A stretch of DNA of 64,000 nt. It comes from Arthrobacter sp. YN (GTDB taxonomy: Bacteria > Actinomycetota > Actinomycetes > Actinomycetales > Micrococcaceae). This document shows, in pieces, positions 9,567 to 20,289 of this stretch. The DNA is taken from positions 4,650,001 through 4,714,000 of the forward strand of contig NZ_CP022436.1 of the NCBI RefSeq assembly GCF_002224285.1, given 5' to 3'. The notes beneath the pieces were generated by a model. The model was not told the origin of the DNA and searched no databases. It worked only from the letters and a program-made list of their open reading frames with translations. A program made the position numbers and the translations under genes. The number at the start of each line of letters is the position of its first letter. Positions within the stretch are counted from its first letter, which is position 1.

Positions 9567-11015
9567 CTAGAGCGAAGCCCTCATGAGCTCGATGGCCTGC
9601 TCCAGATCCCCGCGAAGGTCGCGGTCCCCCACGTCGGACGGCAAGGTGAAACCCGCCCGCATCATGGAGCGCAGCCGGCTGCTGGCAAACTCTTCGGGCT
9701 GCCGCCCCTGCAGGCGAAGCGCCCGGGAAGCACACACAAGCTCGACGGCGGCGACAGTAGCGAGTGCGTCCGCCGTCGACTCCAACCGCGCTGTGGCTAC
9801 GCTTGCAAAGCTGGCATCCTCCTCAGCGCCGAGCGAGAGCACCACGGTCTGCAGGCTAACCGGTTGGGCGTTGGCACGAATCCGGCCGACGGCGGCAGCG
9901 GCCACATATTCAAGCATCATCAGCCCCGACTGACCTGAGCCGTCCTCAGCCAAGAAGGGGTGCAGGCCCGTGTATTTGGGGTCACACAGGAGGTCGATCC
10001 TCCGCAGGTGGGTTGCACACGCCGCGCCGATAGCCAGTTGCAACGCGTCCACCCGGCGGGCGAGGTTGGTCATTTGGAAGAGCCCGTGGTGGGCCACATC
10101 ATTGCTGCCGTCGGACGGCGAGCCGTGGACGAGCGGGTTCTCATTTCCTGCTGTGACAAGACGACTCAGCAGAGCACCCAAGGCCGCGAGTTCCTCTGTT
10201 TGGGAACCAAAGACCTGCGGCAGCGTCCTCAAGCAATAGGGATCTTGGATCCGGGCGGGCTGGCCGCTGCCCTCGACCATTGCATGAAGCGCGTGTGCTG
10301 CATCGGCGACTGCGGACGTGTCCGCCACTGCCGCTACGGCCGGGCTCAGAGCTTCGGAATTGCCGGACATCGCAATGAAGGAGAGTGCGGCCACTGACGC
10401 TGCGTTGTCCAAGAGCGTCGACAGTTTTTGTTGGGACAAGACCGCTTGACCAATAGTCAGCGCACTGGAACTGATGAAGGGCAGGGCATCAGCCGTGGCC
10501 CACCCCGCAAGGCTGACTGGAACCTCATCCCCGCCCAAAGGTGGACGTTCGCCCAACATCGTGAGCGCCGTTCCGGCTAGCGCCTGCAGGTCCGCAGTTC
10601 CGATTCCACCGAACTCCCGGACCTCAGGAACTACGTCGGCATTGATGAGTTCCGCCAACGCATCGGCAATGGCGGGGTTGATTCCTGATCCGCCGGCCGC
10701 CAGTTGGCTGAGCCTGACAACCAACATCGCACGGACGGTCCTGCGATCAAGCGGCTTGCCGGCGTCTACAGCGTGGCTGCGCAGGAGTTTTAGTCCGTGG
10801 GTGTCCCCACCGTCGGCTTCCATCAGGGAAACCCCGCGGTTCGCTCCGACGCCAGTGGATCGGCCATAGACCGGGCGCTGTAGCGCCGTAGCTTCCGCAG
10901 ACTTCCGCGATTCGTCCATTCGGACCACAGCTTCCGGAGCCAAGATGACGTCCTCGCCGTCGGCTACTGCGGCGACGTCGGCCAAGTCCAGTGTCAAGCC
11001 ATCGATCACGATCAT
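9567..11015 (-). CDS. Histidine-ammonia-lyase-family protein lacking the MIO triad
   Basis: 482 residues from the ATG at 11015 (AAAGGA upstream; longer in-frame starts at 11042 and 11063 are weaker). The fold family is clear: YGRSTGVG with Y50, QDPYCLR with Y260/R263, and NENPLV near 291. At the place where HutH/PAL enzymes have GASGDLAPL this protein reads GGIGTADLQAL (136-146), so the Ala-Ser-Gly that cyclises to MIO is absent and one residue is deleted. The Asn of the family LNG motif is Ile (188) and the His of EDH is missing (EEDASFA, 398-404). Standard histidine deamination is therefore unlikely. MIO-free relatives such as ergothionase eliminate trimethylamine instead; the nearby quaternary-amine importer and urocanase fit such a role. 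That assignment is inference. Confidence 0.7.
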   Translation of the reverse strand: MIVIDGLTLDLADVAAVADGEDVILAPEAVVRMDESRKSAEATALQRPVYGRSTGVGANRGVSLMEADGGDTHGLKLLRSHAVDAGKPLDRRTVRAMLVVRLSQLAAGGSGINPAIADALAELINADVVPEVREFGGIGTADLQALAGTALTMLGERPPLGGDEVPVSLAGWATADALPFISSSALTIGQAVLSQQKLSTLLDNAASVAALSFIAMSGNSEALSPAVAAVADTSAVADAAHALHAMVEGSGQPARIQDPYCLRTLPQVFGSQTEELAALGALLSRLVTAGNENPLVHGSPSDGSNDVAHHGLFQMTNLARRVDALQLAIGAACATHLRRIDLLCDPKYTGLHPFLAEDGSGQSGLMMLEYVAAAAVGRIRANAQPVSLQTVVLSLGAEEDASFASVATARLESTADALATVAAVELVCASRALRLQGRQPEEFASSRLRSMMRAGFTLPSDVGDRDLRGDLEQAIELMRASL

Positions 11016-11217
11016 GAACCGATCCTTTCTCTTCAGTTTCATGGGCTCATCAGCCTCGTGCACTAATCAGTTTCCGGCGCAGTGCAGTAGAAGCAGTCCT
11101 CCGGACAAGATAACTGGGTTTGTCCTACGCCTGTATTGGCTCGGTATGGGTATTCCTCCCGATCCCGAACATGAATCCTGGCATCAGGCTGGAGGGCCAG
11201 AGGCGAAAGGTGTGCTG

Positions 11218-11421
11218 TCATCGTCGACCAGGGGTCAGATGAAACCCATCCCCTGCGTGAAAAAGCTTCCGGATCCCAGTACTGGAAAGGACCCAAAGAA
11301 TGGTTCCATCGGCGGTCCTGTCAGCGACAATCCCCCGAAACGGATGGTGGCCCTGTTTTGTCATGGTCACCGGTGCTCCGATAGCGGCTGATGCCCACAC
11401 CGCCGGGCTTTGCCTGTCCAT
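11218..11421 (-). CDS. Small unknown protein, 67 aa
   Basis: The ATG at 11421 follows GCGAGGAGACGC, an excellent RBS. The product reads MDRQSPAVWASAAIGAP at its start and HAGDGFHLTPGRR at its end, with no membrane segment and no lipobox. It lies between hutU and the lyase gene on the same strand, 202 bases before the lyase start, so it could be the first gene of the lyase transcript. I do not recognise the family. The beta-rich central part (FRGIVADRTADGTILWVL) suggests a small barrel. Confidence 0.5.
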   Translation of the reverse strand: MDRQSPAVWASAAIGAPVTMTKQGHHPFRGIVADRTADGTILWVLSSTGIRKLFHAGDGFHLTPGRR

Positions 11422-11485
11422 GGTGCGTCTCCTCGCTCTCAGAAAGAGTGTTTGGACTTTGCATACAAACTGATGCTTGCGGTTG

Positions 11486-11529
11486 TCCCAGGGCGGCCAC
11501 GCAAAATGCTTTGCATAGCCGCCCTGGGA
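11486..11529 (-). terminator. Terminator/extended hairpin after hutU
   Basis: TCCCAGGGCGGC (11486-11497) pairs perfectly with GCCGCCCTGGGA (11518-11529). Inside, GCAAA (11501-11505) pairs with TTTGC (11510-11514), making a long two-part stem. It begins 16 bases past the hutU stop and separates hutU from the 67-aa ORF and lyase. Confidence 0.7.
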
Positions 11530-11545
11530 TTCCTGCGGGATACTG

Positions 11546-13297
11546 CTAGCGCGTGCCGACAGCCTCGTTCATGGGGATGCGGACGCCGCGTTCGTTGGCG
11601 ACGTCGATGGCGCGGTCGTAGCCGGCGTCGACGTGGCGGATGACGCCCATACCGGGGTCGTTGGTCAACAGCCGTTCGAGCTTCTCCGCGGCCAGGTCCG
11701 TGCCATCAGCGACGGAAACCTGTCCGGCGTGGATGGACCGGCCAATACCGACACCGCCGCCGTGATGGATCGAAACCCAGGTAGCCCCCGAAGAGGTGTT
11801 GATCAAGGCGTTCAGCAACGGCCAGTCAGCAACAGCGTCGGAACCGTCAGCCATGGATTCGGTCTCGCGGTAAGGCGATGCCACCGAGCCCGAGTCCAGG
11901 TGGTCACGGCCGATCACGATCGGAGCCTTGACCTTGCCTTCTTTCACGAGCTGGTTGAAGAGCAGGCCGGCCTTGGCTCGTTCGCCGTACCCAAGCCAGC
12001 AAATACGGGCCGGCAGGCCTTCGAATTCCACGCGGTCCGCAGCAGCATCCAACCACTTGTGCAGGTGGGTGTTCTCCGGGAAGAGTTCCTTGATGGCCTT
12101 GTCCGTCACGGCGATGTCCTCGGGGTCACCGGACAGGGCAACCCAGCGGAACGGACCCAGGCCCTCGCAGAACAGGGGGCGGATATAGGCCGGGACGAAG
12201 CCGGGGAACTCGAACGCCCGGTCATAGCCGCCCTTGCGGGCCTCGTCACGGATCGAGTTTCCGTAATCAAAGACCTCAGCTCCGGCGTCCTGGAACTCCA
12301 CCATCGCCTGGACCTGCCGAGCCATGGATGCCTGGGCCTTCTTGCTGAAACCTTCCGGATCGGCTTCGGCTTCGGCGTGCCACTCATCGACGTTGATGCC
12401 CTCGGGAAGGTAGGACAGCGGATCGTGCGCGGACGTCTGGTCCGTGACCACATCAATGGTCAGCTCTCCGGCCTTGTGGCGGCGCAGCAGTTCGGGGAAG
12501 ACCTCAGCGGCGTTGCCCACGTAACCGACGGACCAGCCACGGCGCTCTTCCTTGGCCTTGTTGACCTTGGCGATCGCGGTGTCCAGGTCCGTTTCGACCT
12601 CGTCCAGGTAGCGCTTGCCGGCGCGGCGGCGCAGGCGGGTTTCGTCGACATCGACAATCAGGCACGCGCCGTCGTTCAAGGTGACAGCCAGCGGCTGGGC
12701 GCCGCCCATGCCGCCGCAACCACCGGTCAATGTCAGGGTGCCGGCCAGCGGGCCCTCAGTGAAACCTTCCGCGGCAGTGCCTTCCAAAGACCGGGCCGGG
12801 TGGCGCCCCTCAGCAGCCAACTTGTTGCCGACGGCGGCAAAGGTTTCATACGTGCCCTGCAGGATGCCCTGCGTACCGATGTAAATCCAGGACCCGGCTG
12901 TCATCTGGCCGTACATCATCAAACCCTCAGCCTCAAGACGGCGGAACTCAGGCCACGTCGCCCAATCCCCCACCAGGTTCGAGTTGGCCAGCAGCACCCG
13001 CGGAGCCCACTCGTGGGTGCGGAACACACCCACCGGCTTCCCCGACTGCACCAGGAGCGTCTCGTCCTTCTCCATGGTCTCCAGGGTCCGGGTGATCGCA
13101 TCAAACGCAGCCCACGACCGCACAGCACGGCCCGTGCCGCCATAAACCACCAAATCATCAGGACGCTCAGCGACCTCAGGATCCAGGTTGTTCATCAACA
13201 TGCGCAACGGCGCCTCGGTCTGCCACGACTTGGCAGTAAGTTCAATACCCCGGGCGGCCTTAACCGGACGGGCACCAGTAGTGAAATCGGCAGTCAT
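11546..13297 (-). CDS. hutU: Urocanate hydratase
   Basis: The 583-residue protein converts urocanate to 4-imidazolone-5-propionate in the cytosol using tightly bound NAD+. Family landmarks are [19 protein letters not shown] near the start, the NAD loop [11 protein letters not shown] (192-202), [22 protein letters not shown] with Cys433 (which I equate with the active Cys410 of the Pseudomonas enzyme) and [11 protein letters not shown] strong GAGGAG precedes the ATG. It starts 45 bases after the substrate-binding protein gene, so it is very likely the last gene of the IclR-importer operon. A loop around residues 160-180 is longer than in the Pseudomonas enzyme. Confidence 0.95.
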
Positions 13298-13342
13298 TCT
13301 CTTTACTCCTCTAAAGAAACAGGCGAAACGAACCTGCAGGGA

Positions 13343-14257
13343 TTAGCCCAGGTTCTTGGTCTTGAGCCATTCCTTGGCGATTTCGCCGATGTCCTCGAAC
13401 TTGGCCACGCGGCCGTTCATCTTGATGAGATCCTCGGTGGTCAACGCAGCGGAGACCTTATCCAGCGTTTCCTTGATGGTGTCCGTGGACTTCTTCTCGT
13501 TGATGACCGGCACGATGTTCTCAGAGAGGAAGAGGTTCTTGTTGTCTTCAAGCGCCACGAGGTTGTTTTCCGCCAGGGCGGGATCGGTGCTGAAGAGGTC
13601 AGCTACCTGTACCTGACCGGAAAGGAGGGCGTTCAGCGTGAGCGGACCACCGGCGTCGAGCGCTGAAAATTCCTTGAACTCCAGGTTGTAGACCGACTTA
13701 AGACCGGCAACGCCGTTGAGGCGGGTCTTCCACTCCGGCGGGCCGCCCAACACGAGCTCCTTGGCGACGGGCTGAAGGTCTTCGATGGTCTTCAGCTTGT
13801 ACTGATCGGCGATTTCCTTCTTGACGGTGAGGACATCCTTATCCTCCGCTTCGGAAGCAGTCAGTACTGTCAGGCCGGCCGGGATCTTGGTGGTCAGTTC
13901 CTTGGCGACATCCTCGGAGGAGACGGCCTTGGTGGCGGAGTCGAGGTACTGCAGGAGTGCGCCGCCGTATTCCGGCATGAGGTCGATGGAACCGTCCTTC
14001 AGTGCGGGGATAGTCACCTCGCGACTGCCGATGCTCGGCTTCTCGGTGACCTCGACGCCTTTGGCCTTAAGCGCTTCGGCGTAGATCTTGGCGATCAGCT
14101 GGCTTTCCGGGAAGTCCGCGGAACCGACGATAATGCTGTCCCCCGAAGCACCCGCCGCGGCGGTGTTCGACGAGCTCATGGGGTCCCCGCCGCCACAGGC
14201 GCTCAGGGTGATGGCAGCAACGGCTGCCAGGGTGAATCCGGTGAGGTACTTCTTCAT
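13343..14257 (-). CDS. Quaternary-amine-type ABC substrate-binding lipoprotein (OpuC/OsmF family)
   Basis: The start at 14257 (MKKYLTGF) follows AGGAGA; a longer frame to 14290 adds nothing plausible. A lipobox TLSAC gives lipid-anchored Cys21. The OpuAC-like domain shows GSADFPESQLIAKIYAEAL, GSREVTIPALKDGSIDLMPEYGG and a late AALTTEDLIKMN. This family binds glycine betaine, choline, carnitine, histidine or ergothioneine. It is encoded with two permeases and an ATPase, and directly before hutU, which points to an imidazole-bearing ligand rather than a plain osmolyte. Ligand identity is inferred. Confidence 0.85.
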   Translation of the reverse strand: MKKYLTGFTLAAVAAITLSACGGGDPMSSSNTAAAGASGDSIIVGSADFPESQLIAKIYAEALKAKGVEVTEKPSIGSREVTIPALKDGSIDLMPEYGGALLQYLDSATKAVSSEDVAKELTTKIPAGLTVLTASEAEDKDVLTVKKEIADQYKLKTIEDLQPVAKELVLGGPPEWKTRLNGVAGLKSVYNLEFKEFSALDAGGPLTLNALLSGQVQVADLFSTDPALAENNLVALEDNKNLFLSENIVPVINEKKSTDTIKETLDKVSAALTTEDLIKMNGRVAKFEDIGEIAKEWLKTKNLG

Positions 14258-14352
14258 GTCAACTCTCCTGGGATGGGTGCTGCAGGGCATGCAGCGGCCA
14301 GATGGGGTGGGGTGGAGGTGAATCCGCGCGGAACCACGGGCGCGGGTGTTGA

Positions 14353-15069
14353 TTAGACCGTGACGGGGGTCTTCACGGGTTCGGCCACAGCGGCCGACTT
14401 AATGGTGCGCCGGGTCAATCCGGGTGAGACAACGCGGCGGGTGATGAAAGCGAGAAGCTGGTCGAAGAACAGTGCCAGCAGGGCGACAAGGACGGCGCCG
14501 GCCACCATTTGGCCGTAATCGTTCTGGGCCTTGCCGTCGATCAGGAGGCGACCCAAGCCGCCAAGCGAAATGTACGCGGCGATGGTCGCCGTTGAGATGA
14601 TCTGCAACAGCGCGCTGCGGACACCGGACAAAACCAGCGGAAGGGAACACGGCAGTTGGACATCCGTGAGGATCTTCATGGTGCGGAAACCCATGCCTTT
14701 TGCGGCGTCGACGGCGGCCGCATCCACTGCGCGCACGCCGGCATAGGTGTTGGTCAGGATGGGCGGAACTGCCAGCAATACCAGCACGATGAGGCTGGGA
14801 AGTACGTAGCCCATGCGGGAGGGGAAGGCGGGTGAAATGAGCAGGACCAACAGGATCAGCAGACCCACACTTGGAAGTGCCCGGAGGGCGTTGGCAAGGC
14901 CGGCGATCATGAACACGCCCTTGCCTGTCACGCCAATGTAGATACCCAGGGGCACCGCGATGATGGCCGCAATGGCCAAGGCAATAAGCGAGTACAGGAG
15001 GTGCTCAGCGATCAACGTTGGGATGCCGTCTGCGCCGCTCCAGTGTGCGGGGTCGAACAAGTAGTTCAC
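14353..15069 (-). CDS. OpuC/OsmU-type ABC permease
   Basis: The start is the GTG at 15069, which overlaps the upstream stop in a GTGA junction; the longer frame to 15300 is out of character with the family. The 238-residue protein has about six membrane segments and the transporter coupling region VDAAAVDAAKGMGFRTMKIL. It pairs with the permease encoded immediately upstream to form the membrane channel of the importer. The C-terminal tail (KSAAVAEPVKTPVTV) is cytosolic and poorly conserved. Confidence 0.85.
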   Translation of the reverse strand: MNYLFDPAHWSGADGIPTLIAEHLLYSLIALAIAAIIAVPLGIYIGVTGKGVFMIAGLANALRALPSVGLLILLVLLISPAFPSRMGYVLPSLIVLVLLAVPPILTNTYAGVRAVDAAAVDAAKGMGFRTMKILTDVQLPCSLPLVLSGVRSALLQIISTATIAAYISLGGLGRLLIDGKAQNDYGQMVAGAVLVALLALFFDQLLAFITRRVVSPGLTRRTIKSAAVAEPVKTPVTV

Positions 15070-15716
15070 GATGCCACCACCTTGGGGGTCCACGGTGTCA
15101 GCCACCGGTTGATAAGGATGATCAGCCCGTCCAGGATCATGGCCAGGACCACGCACAGCACAATGCCGGCGATGATCGGGGTGTAGAAACGGAGCTGGAA
15201 GCCCTGCGTGAAGAGCGAACCGAGTTGCGGAATGCCCAGCAGCGCAGCCACGGAGACGAGACTGACATTGGAGACGGCGGCGACGCGCAGTCCTGCGCAA
15301 ATCACCGGGACACCCACGGGAAGTTCAACCTTCAGGAGGCTCTGATAGCCCCGGTAGCCCATGGCTTTGGCTGCCTGGACGGTGTCTTCGGGAACGGAAT
15401 CGAGGGCATCGGCGACTACGCGAACCAGCAGTGCCACGGTGTAGATGGTCAGTGCCGCCACGATGTTGAGCGGGTCCAGGATCTTGGTACCCAGGACCAG
15501 CGGGAGCAGTACAAACAGCGCAAGGGAAGGAACGGTGTAAAGCAACCCGGCCACACCCACCAAGAGCGGGTAGATCCGCCGGCTGCGGTGCGCCCACCAG
15601 CCAAGAGGCAGCGCGATGAGAAGCCCCAGGATCAGCGGGGTGACGGCCAGCAGGACATGCCAGCCGAGCAGGAACACGATGTTGTCGAACTGGCGGCCCA
15701 GCCATTCGAAGTTCAT
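15066..15716 (-). CDS. OpuC/OsmU-type ABC permease
   Basis: 216 residues with five or six membrane spans and the coupling loop DTVQAAKAMGYRGYQSLL followed by ELPVGVPVICAGLR, typical of quaternary-amine transporter permeases. The start ATG overlaps the ATPase stop (ATGA) and the stop overlaps the next permease start (GTGA), so the three genes are translationally coupled. It would work as a heterodimer with the following permease. Confidence 0.87.
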   Translation of the reverse strand: MNFEWLGRQFDNIVFLLGWHVLLAVTPLILGLLIALPLGWWAHRSRRIYPLLVGVAGLLYTVPSLALFVLLPLVLGTKILDPLNIVAALTIYTVALLVRVVADALDSVPEDTVQAAKAMGYRGYQSLLKVELPVGVPVICAGLRVAAVSNVSLVSVAALLGIPQLGSLFTQGFQLRFYTPIIAGIVLCVVLAMILDGLIILINRWLTPWTPKVVAS

Positions 15717-16819
15717 CAGATCGTCTCCAGGTGTGGTTCGGCCTCGATGGCTTTGACCACGTCTGTTGCAGAGACGGTCCCGATCAGTTCGCCATGCTCA
15801 TTGACAACCACGCCTCGGCGGCTCGGCGAGGAAAGGGCGGCATCCAGCAGTTGACGCATGGTGCCCGATGCTGCTGCCGGGATCCCGCTCAGATTCAGGT
15901 TCTCCCGCTTCACCTCACCGTTGAGAAGCTGCGGCTGGGCCCAACCGAGAGGCTTCCGGCCGCCGTCGACCACCAACACCCAAGCACCCAGCGCCTTGGC
16001 GCGGGCTTCATCCGCGGAAGCACCGAGCTGAACTACAGCTTCCTCGCCAATGGCCACAGTGCCGGCTGTTTTCGTAAATCCGAGCGAGCGGTAGCCACGG
16101 TCACGGCCCACGAAGTCGGCCACGAACTCGTCAGCGGGGGCGGTCAGCAGTTCGGAGGGGGACGCCATTTGCGCCAGCTTGCCGCCCACGCGCATGACGG
16201 CAACCTGGTCCCCGAGCTTGAGGGCCTCATCGATGTCGTGGGTGACCATGATGATGGTCTTGCCGATCTCGCGCTGAAGGCGAAGGAACTCCTCCTGGAG
16301 CTGGGCGCGCACTACAGGGTCAACTGCACTGAAGGGCTCGTCCATCAGCATGAACGCAGGGTCCGAGGCGAGCGCCCGGGCGACACCGACGCGCTGCTGC
16401 TGTCCGCCGGAGAGCTGCCAGGGATAACGCTTGGCGAAGCTCGCGGGCAATCCAACGCGCTCCATCAATTCGAGCGCCTTGGTCCGGGCCTTTTGGCGGC
16501 TTTCCCCGAGCAGGAGCGGCATGGTGGACACATTGTCAACGATGGTCTTGTGCGGGAAGAGTCCTGCGTGCTGGATGACGTAACCGATCCTGCGGCGGAG
16601 CAACGCTGCGTCCATGCCGGAGGTGGGCTGATCATCCAGGTAGATGGTGCCGCTGGTGGGTTCGATGAGGCGGTTGATCATCCTCAGGGAAGTGGTCTTG
16701 CCGCATCCGGAAGGACCAACAAGAATGGTCAACTTTCCGGTGGGAGCCTCCAGGTTGAGGCCGTCGACTGCCACCGTACCGTCAGGGTACGCCTTGGTGA
16801 CATTTTCAAATTTGATCAT
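15716..16819 (-). CDS. Quaternary-amine-type ABC ATPase with C-terminal CBS region
   Basis: 367 residues. Walker A is GPSGCGKTT, the Q-loop lies at YVIQHAGLFPH, the signature is LSGGQQQR, Walker B is MLMDEPFSAVDP and the switch His is in VTHDID. After about residue 250 comes a CBS-type region ending RGVVVNEHGELIGTVSATDVV, as in OpuCA/OsmV ATPases, where CBS domains sense ionic strength or nucleotides. It overlaps the IclR stop by ATGA. It energises the importer formed with the two permeases and the lipoprotein. Confidence 0.9.
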   Translation of the reverse strand: MIKFENVTKAYPDGTVAVDGLNLEAPTGKLTILVGPSGCGKTTSLRMINRLIEPTSGTIYLDDQPTSGMDAALLRRRIGYVIQHAGLFPHKTIVDNVSTMPLLLGESRQKARTKALELMERVGLPASFAKRYPWQLSGGQQQRVGVARALASDPAFMLMDEPFSAVDPVVRAQLQEEFLRLQREIGKTIIMVTHDIDEALKLGDQVAVMRVGGKLAQMASPSELLTAPADEFVADFVGRDRGYRSLGFTKTAGTVAIGEEAVVQLGASADEARAKALGAWVLVVDGGRKPLGWAQPQLLNGEVKRENLNLSGIPAAASGTMRQLLDAALSSPSRRGVVVNEHGELIGTVSATDVVKAIEAEPHLETI

Positions 16820-17502
16820 TTCTTTTCCATGCTTTCCTGGGGCACTTCATGGTTTCCGTCGGGTTCCACGAGGAGGTTGTCGGCAACCTTCACCAGTTCC
16901 TCGCCAAATGTCTGGGCCTTCGCCTCGTCCAAGCGGTAGCTGGGCACCACGATGCTGAGGGCTGCCACTGTTCGGCCGCCGATCACAATGGGTGCGGCGA
17001 CGGCCGTGATGTCGTCTTCAACGCCGCTCCGCACAATGGCGTAGCCGCGGCCGTTCTGCCCGCCGGTCAGCACCTTGCCGGCGGCGGAGCCCTCCAGCGG
17101 GATGCTCCTGCCGACCCAACTGGTATGCCGGACAGAGCGGGTACCTTCGACGATGGCGATGTAGATTCCGGTGTCCCCAGCACCGGGAATGCTCAAGTAG
17201 CAGGATTCACCCGTATCAGCCACAAGCCGCTTCATGTGCGGCGTGCAGAGCGACACCAGGGACTCCTGCCCCAAAGCCAGCGCTCCCAACTGAATGACAC
17301 TTGCTCCCGGGCGGAAATTGCCCCCGGGATCCCGCGTCACGAATCCGCTGCCTTCGAGGGTTCGGAGGAGGCGGAGCGCGGTACTGGCTGACAGATCAAC
17401 CACACGCGCTGCGTCACTCAGGCTGATGGAGCCGTCAGTGCAGACTGCACTGAGGAGGGCCAATGCCCTCTCGACTGTTCGGGTGGAAGAATCCGCTGCC
17501 AC
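16816..17502 (-). CDS. IclR-family transcriptional regulator
   Basis: An N-terminal winged helix (TRTVERALALLSAVC, then ISLSDAARVVDLSASTALRLLRTL) is followed by an IclR effector domain (ESCYLSIPG, VRHTSWVGRSIPLEGSAAGKVL). The frame is open to a GTG at 17547, but that start has no RBS and lies inside an inverted repeat, so I prefer the GTG at 17502 preceded by AGCAGG. It heads the importer-hutU operon and is divergent from the M20-hutF pair, so it likely controls both in response to a pathway intermediate such as urocanate. The effector is inferred. Confidence 0.85.
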   Translation of the reverse strand: MAADSSTRTVERALALLSAVCTDGSISLSDAARVVDLSASTALRLLRTLEGSGFVTRDPGGNFRPGASVIQLGALALGQESLVSLCTPHMKRLVADTGESCYLSIPGAGDTGIYIAIVEGTRSVRHTSWVGRSIPLEGSAAGKVLTGGQNGRGYAIVRSGVEDDITAVAAPIVIGGRTVAALSIVVPSYRLDEAKAQTFGEELVKVADNLLVEPDGNHEVPQESMEKK

Positions 17503-17539
17503 TGCCTGACCTGCTTTCAAGTGGTCTACATCACCATGT

Positions 17540-17579
17540 CTTGCCACTTAGTAAAAATCAATTTTCATCAAATGGCAAG
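17540..17579. promoter_or_regulatory. Candidate IclR operator in divergent control region
   Basis: CTTGCCA (17540-17546) and TGGCAAG (17573-17579) are perfect inverted arms 26 bases apart. Between them AAAAT-CA-ATTTT (17554-17565) forms a second, AT-rich palindrome of the size IclR dimers usually bind. The region separates the iclR operon from the M20-hutF operon. Confidence 0.5.
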
Positions 17580-17734
17580 AGTTTTTTGAAAAATGAGAGA
17601 CAGGGCCGGTTACGTGACGCCGAATGCCCCGCAGGAAGGCGGGCATGTTTCGGCAGTGTAAATACTCGCGCGAACCCTTGCCAAGGGCTGGCATGTGGTT
17701 TTTACTTGGTGGCAGTCTTCAATCGGAGGAATAC

Positions 17735-18934
17735 GTGGAAACCGTCAATCAACTCTTGTCCTCAATCCAGGATGTGGGCCGCGACGCGGTGCGCGGAGGA
17801 TACTCAAGGGCCGTCTTCACGACGCCTGAACTGGACCTCAGGCAGTGGTTCGTTGAGCAAGCCCAACACCGCGGCCTCGACGTCGAGACGGACCGCAACG
17901 GGATAATGTGGGCCTGGTGGGGCAAACCCCAAGAGGGCGCACTCGTCACCGGGAGCCATCTCGATTCCGTGCCTGGTGGCGGCGCATTCGACGGACCTCT
18001 CGGTGTCGCCTCCGCGTTGGCCGCCGTCGATATCCTCAAAACCCGGGGATTCCAGCCTCCAAGGTCGCTCGCGGTCACCGTTTTTCCTGAGGAGGAAGGA
18101 TCCCGCTTTGGCGTCGCCTGCCTGGGATCGCGACTCCTCACCGGTGCGATAGACGCCGACAAGGCCCTGAACCTGCGCGACGTCAACGGTGACACCTTCG
18201 CCGACGTCGCCGGCGCCAACGGCTTGGATCCCCGTCACATGGGCCCGGATCCGGAAGCCATGGCGCGTATCGGCGACTTCGTCGAACTCCACGTTGAACA
18301 GGGAAAGGGCCTGGGGCAGGATGGCCCCGCCATCGCCGTCGGGAGTTCAATCCTGGGGCACGGGCGCTGGAAAATCAGTGTCAGCGGCCAGGGAAACCAT
18401 GCCGGCACCACGCTCATGGCGGACCGCGCCGACCCGATGGTCGCGGCCGCGCAGATCGTCCTCGCCGTTCGCGAAACGGCGGCCAGGCAGCCGGACGCCC
18501 GAGCCACCGTAGGCCGACTGACGCCGGTTCCGGGCGGAACCAACGTCATCGCTTCGCGCGTCGATCTTTGGCTGGACGCCCGTCATCCCGACGACGCCGT
18601 GACAGCTCAACTCATCGAGGGAATCTACCGTGCAGCCCAGGATGTCGCAGCCGCAGAGGGTTGCACCGTAACCCTCACGGAAGAGTCGTACAGCGACACT
18701 GTCCACTTTGATGCCGGCCTAAGCCGTCGTATCACCGACATACTGCCAGCTGCTCCCGTCCTGGCAACCGGCGCGGGGCATGACGCTGGTGTACTGGCCG
18801 GCTACGTTCCCTCCGCCATGGTTTTTGTCCGCAACCCCAGCGGCATTTCGCACTCACCGGAGGAATACGTGGCCGATGAGGACGCCTCAGCCGGTGCCGT
18901 TGCGCTAGCTGATGTTTTGGAGGGACTTCTGTGA
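17735..18934 (+). CDS. M20-family amidohydrolase (allantoate/N-carbamoyl type), probable N-formylglutamate step
   Basis: The GTG at 17735 follows CGGAGGA with ideal spacing; upstream in-frame starts have none. The 399-residue protein shows the dinuclear metal motifs TGSHLDSVPGGGAFDG (H75, D86) and FPEEEGSRFG (about 117-126), with ELHVEQGKGL and a C-terminal GAGHDAGVLAG typical of hydantoinase/carbamoylase amidohydrolases. It overlaps hutF by GTGA. HutF makes N-formylglutamate and no HutG is present here, so this enzyme plausibly removes the formyl group. Family membership is clear; substrate is inference from context. Confidence 0.85.
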   Translation: METVNQLLSSIQDVGRDAVRGGYSRAVFTTPELDLRQWFVEQAQHRGLDVETDRNGIMWAWWGKPQEGALVTGSHLDSVPGGGAFDGPLGVASALAAVDILKTRGFQPPRSLAVTVFPEEEGSRFGVACLGSRLLTGAIDADKALNLRDVNGDTFADVAGANGLDPRHMGPDPEAMARIGDFVELHVEQGKGLGQDGPAIAVGSSILGHGRWKISVSGQGNHAGTTLMADRADPMVAAAQIVLAVRETAARQPDARATVGRLTPVPGGTNVIASRVDLWLDARHPDDAVTAQLIEGIYRAAQDVAAAEGCTVTLTEESYSDTVHFDAGLSRRITDILPAAPVLATGAGHDAGVLAGYVPSAMVFVRNPSGISHSPEEYVADEDASAGAVALADVLEGLL

Positions 18935-20289
18935 ACGCCTTCTGGTGTGAGACGGCCGTCATCGCCATCAATGACGGCGACGGCGGCCATACAGAGGTTG
19001 CCACCGGCGTACGTGTCGAAACCAGCGATGGCCGCATCTCCGCCATCCACGCCGGCGTTCAGCCCCTGCCCGACGACACAACGCTGGCGGGCGTCGCCTT
19101 CCCCGCAGCTGCGAACGCACACTCCCACGCCTTCCACAGGATCCTTCGCGGAAGAACCCACGATGGACACGGAGATTTCTGGGTGTGGCGGGAGCAAATG
19201 TACCGGAGCGCGTCCGAGCTGACTCCTGAGAAGTACCAGAAGCTCGCTACCGCCGTCTTCGCCGAAATGGTAGTCAGCGGATTCAGCAGCGTCGCCGAAT
19301 TCCATTACGTCCATCATCAACCCGCAGGCGCGCCCTATGCGGAGCCACATGCCATGGAGCTGGCCCTTGCCCGGGCAGCCGTGTCTGCCGGGATCCGGCT
19401 CACACTTTTGGACACGCTGTATCTGACGGGCGGAATTGGCACCCCTCTGAGCCGTGACCAAGCCAGGTTCGGGGACGCGGATGCCCTGGCTTGGTTGGAC
19501 CGGCTGTCCTCCCTTCGGGCTGCGATAGCAGAGGAGTTTCCGCCCGAGGTGGTGGGTGTCGGAGCTGCCCTGCATTCCGTCCGCGCGGTGCCGGAAGAAG
19601 CCCTGAAAATCGTTGCCGAGCAGCTACCCAGGGACATTCCGCTTCACATCCACCTGAGCGAACAACCTGCTGAAAATGACGCATGCATGGAGGCATACGG
19701 CACCACTCCGACCGGACTCTTGGAACGCCACGGCCTCTTGTCTTCCAGACTTTCAGCTGTCCATTCCACGCACCTGACCCAGGAAGACATCGCTTTGCTC
19801 GGCGGAGCGTCCACCACCGTGGTGATGTGTCCGACCACGGAAGCCGATCTCGCAGACGGGATCGGCCCTGCCCGGGAACTCTGCGACGCAGGAGCCACCA
19901 TCGCCCTGGGCACTGACCAGCATGCGGTGATCGACCCTTGGATTGAAATGCGCACCTTGGAACAAGGGGAACGGCTGGGCAGCGGGCAACGCGGAAGGTT
20001 CTCGCCCGGAGAGCTGCTGGCCGCGGCCACTGAAGGAGCCACTCATTCCATGGCCACCCCCATAGCCCCACAGGCCCTGCAGGTGGGCGGGGTTTGCGAC
20101 ATCATGGTCATCAATCCCGCCTCCACCCGGACCGCGGGATCCCGGCCCATGCAGCTGGCTTTCAGCGCGACGGCGAGTGATGTCACGCAGGTGGTCATCG
20201 GTGGTGAACTGATCGCCTCGAACGGGGTGCACGCGGGTCTTGGGGCTCCAGGGGCCCTCCTGACCGAAGCACTCAAGGAGTTCTCCTAA
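18931..20289 (+). CDS. hutF: Formimidoylglutamate deiminase
   Basis: 452 residues of the amidohydrolase superfamily. Metal and substrate motifs are AANAHSHAFH, DFWVWREQMY, AALHSVRAVP, HIHLSEQPAEN and GTDQHAVIDPW. HutF hydrolyses N-formimidoyl-L-glutamate to N-formylglutamate and ammonia in the five-step histidine pathway. It is translationally coupled to the upstream M20 amidohydrolase. The imidazolonepropionase HutI that should feed it is not in the window. Confidence 0.9.
   Translation: MNAFWCETAVIAINDGDGGHTEVATGVRVETSDGRISAIHAGVQPLPDDTTLAGVAFPAAANAHSHAFHRILRGRTHDGHGDFWVWREQMYRSASELTPEKYQKLATAVFAEMVVSGFSSVAEFHYVHHQPAGAPYAEPHAMELALARAAVSAGIRLTLLDTLYLTGGIGTPLSRDQARFGDADALAWLDRLSSLRAAIAEEFPPEVVGVGAALHSVRAVPEEALKIVAEQLPRDIPLHIHLSEQPAENDACMEAYGTTPTGLLERHGLLSSRLSAVHSTHLTQEDIALLGGASTTVVMCPTTEADLADGIGPARELCDAGATIALGTDQHAVIDPWIEMRTLEQGERLGSGQRGRFSPGELLAAATEGATHSMATPIAPQALQVGGVCDIMVINPASTRTAGSRPMQLAFSATASDVTQVVIGGELIASNGVHAGLGAPGALLTEALKEFS

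Follow-up and report, generated by a model that had tools for sequence, protein, structure and literature searches.

A MIO-free lyase among importer and hut genes in Arthrobacter sp. YN: a probable entrance for hercynine into histidine breakdown

What enters histidine breakdown at a locus where genes for urocanate hydratase (HutU) and formimidoylglutamate deiminase (HutF) stand beside an OpuC-type importer and a lyase that lacks the 4-methylideneimidazole-5-one (MIO) triad of histidine ammonia-lyase (HutH)? The question is raised by an island at 9567-20289 in a stretch of 64,000 nucleotides from Arthrobacter sp. YN (contig NZ_CP022436.1, positions 4,650,001 to 4,714,000), here called the window, whose coordinates are used for the island genes; the host genome is one contig of 5.06 Mb. 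A sequence-only reading had suggested a catabolic island for histidine betaines, and all the genes that it listed were found in their places. With moderate confidence we interpret the island as an additional path by which an imidazole betaine, most probably hercynine (N-alpha-trimethylhistidine), would enter histidine breakdown. Hercynine, which fungi and many actinobacteria produce, is the precursor of ergothioneine. Among the open-access papers listed on the subject there was no description of a bacterial route for hercynine breakdown or of a hercynine lyase.

A lyase without the MIO triad

The lyase gene (9567-11063, minus strand; homologues suggest an ATG at about 11015 as start) encodes a MIO-free protein of the aromatic-lyase family (PF00221, 301.9 bits), which we predict to be an imidazole-betaine (hercynine) trimethylamine-lyase. 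With the hutH equivalog model TIGR01225 it reaches 239.1 bits against a cut-off of 539.15 and is thus no HutH by this measure. The protein was aligned with Pseudomonas HutH, the HutH of the host itself, the solved ergothionase 6s7j and a lyase encoded in an Ert operon of Rhizobium. Here, the MIO triad is one residue short (G-TA-D versus G-ASG-D in HutH), and the Asn that contacts MIO in HutH, N195, is replaced by Ser. The description of this protein as MIO-free in the sequence-only reading therefore holds. Both ergothionases compared, 6s7j and the Rhizobium lyase, share the one-residue deletion and the Ser. The lyase keeps Y53, H83, Q277, R283, F329 and E414 (HutH numbering); in HutH, H83 and E414 are the pair that holds the imidazole. 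A Lys common to both ergothionases is Tyr in the lyase.

These features are those of a whole group. Residues were counted over 121 proteins, namely the lyase of the window and 120 listed of 1107 matches. The loop deletion was present in all 120 proteins that cover the loop, Ser at N195 and R283 in 121/121, Y53 and H83 in 118 (gapped in the other three), Q277 in 120 and E414 in 119 (gapped in two). At the site of the ergothionase Lys, 118 have Tyr and one has Phe, with gaps in two. The ratio of nonsynonymous to synonymous substitution rates (dN/dS) of the lyase, estimated by two methods, is 0.17-0.21 in comparison with L087 and 0.07-0.09 with L019: judged from these values, the gene is under purifying selection.

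We propose that the lyase, equipped with the old histidine-lyase pocket and base, removes the beta proton and expels trimethylamine to leave urocanate. The MIO electrophile may be unneeded because trimethylamine is a good enough leaving group. A MIO-free elimination of an amine that would feed urocanate into the hut route is well supported by the anatomy of the locus.

The tree unites 36 lyases of the island type, drawn from actinobacterial genomes along with a few unnamed proteins, in a single clade (100/100) that excludes the HutH rows as well as 6s7j, the Rhizobium lyase and their relatives. The assignment of the lyase to the ergothionase clade was rejected on this ground. The lyase belongs to an uncharacterised group which occurs in several kinds of actinobacteria. 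After addition of AdmH, the MIO-bearing rows together with L047 lie on one side of a 96/95 branch of the unrooted tree; with a root among these rows, MIO may have been lost only once. Within the clade H83 has been lost in L105.

The ergothionase references were PDB 6s7j/6s7q from Treponema denticola and the lyase of a plasmid operon of Rhizobium sp. SL42 (L107:2196-10605). This Ert-type operon holds the lyase, ErtD, ErtE, a DUF917 protein and thiourocanate hydratase; its products exceed the cut-offs for thiourocanate hydratase (the hydratase), ErtD (the amidohydrolase) and ErtE (the Zn hydrolase). The best solved relative of the SL42 lyase is 6s7j, and it has Ser at F329. Ergothionase is the lyase of the Ert pathway. 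L046 was considered as a further ergothionase reference and rejected, as it belongs to another lyase group: the plasmid HutH relatives L045, L046, L047 and L050 carry the loop GS(A/V)GYL, where the MIO triad has been lost in another way, but keep N195, and their lyases form a separate clade (100/100). On pSymA of Sinorhizobium meliloti, a MIO-free lyase (L043, from about 5755) groups with ergothionase and seems by eye to start with an export signal. The host itself has a third aromatic lyase, likewise MIO-free (C1:4458253-4459869, also L005:9254-10870, and listed too as C1:4458439-4459815; G-SS-D, Ser for N195), flanked by genes for a luciferase-like monooxygenase and for an enzyme dependent on pyridoxal phosphate.

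Downstream enzymes and the expected product

The HutU of the island (11546-13297, minus strand) is a canonical member of its family, with 867.5 bits for TIGR01228 (cut-off 375). It stays under the cut-offs for thiourocanate hydratase (NF058530; 618.7 versus 930 bits, where a positive control from L107 scores 1037) and for S-methyl-thiourocanate hydratase (678.8 versus 880 bits). In 396 genomes of the phylum, thiourocanate hydratase was found over the cut-off in none. The M20 amidohydrolase (17624-18934, plus strand; start probably near 17726) scores 613 bits with NF006770, a model named for allantoate amidohydrolase (cut-off 372), and 275.9 bits with the ErtE model NF058540 (cut-off 520), hence it is not ErtE; we predict it to be an N-formylglutamate deformylase. 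HutF (18931-20289, plus strand) passes NF006681 (537 bits, cut-off 362) and narrowly misses TIGR02022 (396 versus 413); this is its single strong match in the host genome, with a runner-up of 138 bits against 396. Since HutU is canonical, the M20 protein is not ErtE and no thiourocanate hydratase passes the cut-off in the 396 genomes, plain urocanate is the expected product of the lyase, which points toward hercynine and away from ergothioneine.

It appears improbable, then, that ergothioneine or ergothioneine sulfonate is broken down here and that the lyase is an actinobacterial ergothionase, although the loop deletion and the Ser are those of ergothionase, the binding protein of the importer is related to EgtUC, and egt genes lie nearby in one genus. 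Besides the hydratase and M20 scores and the phylum-wide count, the ergothionase Lys is Tyr or Phe throughout the clade wherever that site is covered, the lyase falls outside the ergothionase clade, and the binding protein lacks the EgtU marks G244 and F293. As a substrate of the proposed route, ergothioneine is accordingly unlikely.

In the proposed flow the dedicated HutU would convert urocanate to imidazolonepropionate, HutI would open this compound, and HutF would yield N-formylglutamate, from which the M20 hydrolase may then release glutamate. The sequence-only reading placed the imidazolonepropionase outside the island, and one HutI match over the cut-off (306 bits versus 298) was indeed detected at C1:1689582. 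It had further remarked on the absence of canonical HutH. This is true for the window; elsewhere in the genome, a canonical hut locus comprises an amino-acid permease, an IclR gene, HutU, HutH (C1:453555-454973, with a C-S-G triad) and a protein of the arginase family that is probably HutG. A lack of HutH in the organism was thereby rejected. The two HutU copies of the genome are 93% identical, and because the canonical locus has its own HutU, that of the window is an extra copy.

Two full HutU copies were found in 13 of 19 cluster genomes searched, while in the other six (G424, G437, G448, G462, G521, G525) HutU is wholly or partly in pieces. One full copy is present in all 22 lyase-negative genomes (in G407 together with a fragment), and likewise in G535 and G485. 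The synonymous divergence (dS) of the cluster HutU from its counterpart in G474 (L087) is 0.69, versus 0.20 for the lyase and 0.12 for the binding protein; the HutU copies may have undergone gene conversion with each other.

Could the island be no more than a second hut locus for ordinary histidine use, with an idle or minor MIO-less lyase? HutU, HutF and the M20 protein would fit, the histidine route may share the HutF of the island since the genome has no second strong copy, and in L163, L164, L167 and L171 a canonical hutH lies in the same stretch. We consider this very improbable, given the separate locus with HutH, HutU, permease and arginase-family protein, the purifying selection on a lyase whose catalytic sites are kept in nearly all matches covering them, and the co-occurrence of the lyase with the importer.

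Linkage of the lyase, the importer and egt genes

Linkage was surveyed in 150 congeneric genomes, where the lyase was counted at an identity of at least 60%. It is present in 20 of them; a 21st genome (G485) passes the E-value limit with a 41% relative. The solute-binding protein (SBP) of the importer was found at an identity of at least 81% in 19 of the 20 lyase-bearing genomes, including G492 with a partial match, and in none of the 130 others. The sole lyase genome without such an SBP is G535, where a gene of the major facilitator superfamily (MFS) adjoins the lyase. Eighteen lyase loci of the genus were compared: three end at contig edges, one is that of G535 (L102, uncut, with a 60% lyase beside the MFS gene), and the remaining 14, uncut and with the ABC (ATP-binding cassette) setting, all show the same order of HutF-M20, IclR, ATPase, two permeases, SBP, HutU and lyase. 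In L103 and L104, which belong to these 14, island genes are in pieces. The low dN/dS and the shared order in 14/14 loci speak for a retention of the lyase beyond chance. A second set of 23 lyase loci, partly from the same genomes, comprises 10 with the whole island, nine cut by contig ends and four that deviate. Among the matches listed, the nearest named proteins are from Paenarthrobacter and Arthrobacter.

A different setting surrounds a 42% relative of the lyase in L105 (8111-9556, on G448:C22; with L108), which is MIO-free and has Ser for H83. Its neighbours are an acyl-CoA-ligase-type gene, a thiolase, a short-chain dehydrogenase/reductase, a 2Fe-2S/FAD reductase, a cytochrome P450, an FAD oxidoreductase and an IclR gene; a second copy of the island SBP lies about 10 kb from the L105-type lyase. 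This lyase is perhaps for another aromatic betaine.

In the class as a whole, the lyase was detected at E values of at most 1e-60 in 23 of 394 genomes (host included), from 12 of 137 genera. Loci from 20 of the 22 other genomes were examined, that is from all except G648 and G781. These loci are not independent, because eight of the 20 belong to a single genus. The lyase has an OpuC-type importer beside it in 17/20, and hutU is within the stretch in 11/20. In L163 and L164, hutH, hutU, M20, HutF and HutI stand together with the lyase and the importer.

The sequence-only reading had asked for co-occurrence with ergothioneine genes. Counted in lyase-bearing genomes, EgtD is present in 17 of the 22 from the class and in 0 of 13 Arthrobacter cluster genomes. 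EgtD is also absent from the host genome, so the host does not make hercynine by the EgtD route. In two genomes of one genus, G859 and G747, egtA, egtB and egtD are in the same stretch as the lyase, with egtD 2.7 kb away; egtC was scored in G747 only. No other observation ties the lyase to hercynine as directly as this adjacency, which counts, however, as a single lineage. In L167 and L171, egt genes, a MIO-free lyase, an OpuC-type importer, an IclR gene, hutH and hutU are found within less than 20 kb.

Import, regulation and known systems

The importer would take up hercynine as the first step of the proposed route. Its genes, all on the minus strand, encode an OpuC/ProX-type solute-binding lipoprotein (13343-14290, assigned by similarity to solved structures), permease 2 (14353 to about 15069), permease 1 (15066-15716) and a ProV-like ATP-binding protein (15716-16819; TIGR01186, 290.9 bits, cut-off 326.6). 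Both permeases are of the ProW/choline permease family, under the equivalog cut-offs. For permease 2 a GTG at 15069 is proposed as start, as a longer open reading frame to 15300 would overlap permease 1.

The best solved relatives of the SBP are acetylcholine and nicotine sensor proteins, followed by EgtUC. For EgtUC, PMC9732360 gives a cage of F293, N339, Y341, Y419 and Y443, carboxylate contacts through K242, T296 and R379, and G244 and F293 as invariant marks of EgtU. At these sites the SBP has Tyr at 293, Asp at 339, Asp at 341, Phe at 419 (by alignment), Glu at 443 and Phe at 244; both EgtU marks are thus replaced. Among the sites of the aromatic cage, the trait of quaternary-amine SBPs (subcluster F-III), two are Tyr and Phe (the latter by alignment) and two are Asp and Glu/Gln. 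The class-level SBPs show Asp at 341 in all 13 that are aligned there and Glu or Gln at 443 in all 17, where those of L163-L166 were aligned over the C-terminal half only. The Glu and Arg of a stretch EWKTR may correspond to E375 and R379 of EgtUC, to which they were matched by spacing alone; this Glu occurs in an acetylcholine-sensor chain as well, and the housekeeping paralogue of the host (C1:3537052) has Thr. The Asp as a mark of specificity for the island substrate was rejected, since the housekeeping paralogue shares it. Judged by its residues, the SBP decides neither for nor against a trimethylammonium ligand. The argument of the sequence-only reading from importer class to trimethylammonium uptake keeps the homology to EgtUC, but is weak because the cage is not a classic one.

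The acidic pocket leads to a further explanation, in which the same mechanism acts on some imidazole compound other than hercynine that also has a good leaving group at the alpha position, for instance a ring-methylated histidine betaine. A pocket unlike that of EgtUC, with two acidic residues, would agree with it, as would the diversity of the clade, seen in the loss of H83 in L105 and in the different transporters of L102, L106 and L169. The canonical HutU and HutF downstream need plain urocanate products, however, and in one genus the lyase has egtD in its vicinity. We rate this explanation as unlikely.

Several observations weigh against hercynine as the substrate, or against a fixed partnership of lyase, importer and hut genes. 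On the side of the importer, EgtUC is described in PMC9732360 as binding hercynine poorly, the SBP has Asp and Glu where EgtUC has two of its cage Tyr, the carboxylate-binding Lys and Thr of EgtUC are absent, and the housekeeping paralogue also has Asp at 341. Among the four deviating loci, L024 has neither M20 nor HutF, L033 (Arthrobacter sp. 9AX, on a 4.4-Mb contig) has the lyase with a short remnant of HutU and no match to the importer, L036 has a different transporter, and L038 (Microbacterium, 35% lyase) shows, apart from an IclR gene, only a weak match of the MFS type. The setting is of the MFS type instead of ABC in L102 and L106, and a P450 setting surrounds the lyase relative in L105. 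At class level, L169 has an MFS gene, no ABC gene was seen in L178 and L181, and canonical hutH shares the cluster in L163, L164, L167 and L171. The egt linkage concerns one genus, 2 of the 17 EgtD-bearing class genomes, and EgtD was counted among lyase-bearing genomes. The sequence-only reading had also asked for genes of trimethylamine use: the search of the host for a trimethylamine monooxygenase, which left other trimethylamine routes aside, yielded only two weak partial matches of the flavin-containing monooxygenase type and no evident enzyme.

With ergothioneine set aside as unlikely, the flow from imported hercynine through urocanate to glutamate still offers the best fit to the MIO deletion and N195S as in ergothionases, the linkage of importer and hut genes, and the egt genes in one genus. 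A wider statement we regard as evenly balanced: that the clade of MIO-free actinobacterial lyases beside the ergothionases consists of dedicated hercynine trimethylamine-lyases, that with the importer they make up a full pathway from hercynine to glutamate via urocanate, that the locus of one genus both makes and removes hercynine, and that side branches such as L105 act on other aromatic amino-acid betaines. If the hercynine route is real, a group of proteins that at present go by the names of histidine ammonia-lyase or aromatic amino acid lyase would be misnamed, histidine betaine would yield trimethylamine through soil actinobacteria, and a second clade would connect the loss of MIO with a better leaving group.

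The IclR-family regulator (16816-17547, minus strand; IclR-family NCBIfam models matched, all under cut-off) may control the divergent promoter between the minus-strand genes, in the order IclR, ATPase, two permeases, lipoprotein, HutU and lyase, and the divergent M20 and HutF genes. HutU begins 45 bases after the lipoprotein gene. Between HutU and the lyase there is a gap of 482 bases (11064-11545), where a promoter of its own for the lyase is possible. The control region (17543-17713) contains two inverted copies of GCCACTNAGTAAAAA as candidate IclR operators, at 17543-17557 (plus strand) and 17699-17713 (minus strand), which flank the divergent promoter and have 0 and 1 mismatch in the window. 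Copy 1 is conserved in 14/14 aligned sequences; copy 2 is whole in six of them, and the remaining sequences end before or within it. These matches are not independent counts, because the pattern was derived from the site itself. The motif was not found in the canonical hut locus (L004). The conserved motif overlaps the listed start of the IclR gene, hence the true start may lie inside the listed reading frame.

How does the island compare with known systems? Ergothionase is described in PMC13405746 as an enzyme without MIO that is firmly identified in few microbes. The island lyase resembles ergothionases as a member of the HutH family with the one-residue MIO deletion, the change of N195 to Ser and the retained Tyr53, H83, Arg283 and E414. 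However, it stands in a separate clade, has Tyr (in relatives rarely Phe) in place of their Lys, and belongs to lyases in which position 280, Leu in both ergothionases, is mostly Tyr or Phe, with Ala in L174 and Leu in a single match. The neighbours differ as well: thiourocanate hydratase, DUF917 protein, ErtD and ErtE in the ergothionase operon, canonical HutU, HutF and M20 in the island. With HutH the lyase has in common the PF00221 family and the imidazole pocket residues, but neither the MIO triad nor N195, and its 239 bits stay far from the cut-off of 539. The SBP is homologous to EgtUC of the EgtU/EgtUV system and to choline- and betaine-binding proteins of the OpuC/ProX type, but is without the Gly and Phe specific for EgtU and has Asp and Glu for two cage Tyr. 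From the Hut pathway the island takes ordinary members in HutU and HutF, whereas it would be entered by another lyase, fed by an OpuC-type ABC importer and served by a HutI encoded elsewhere.

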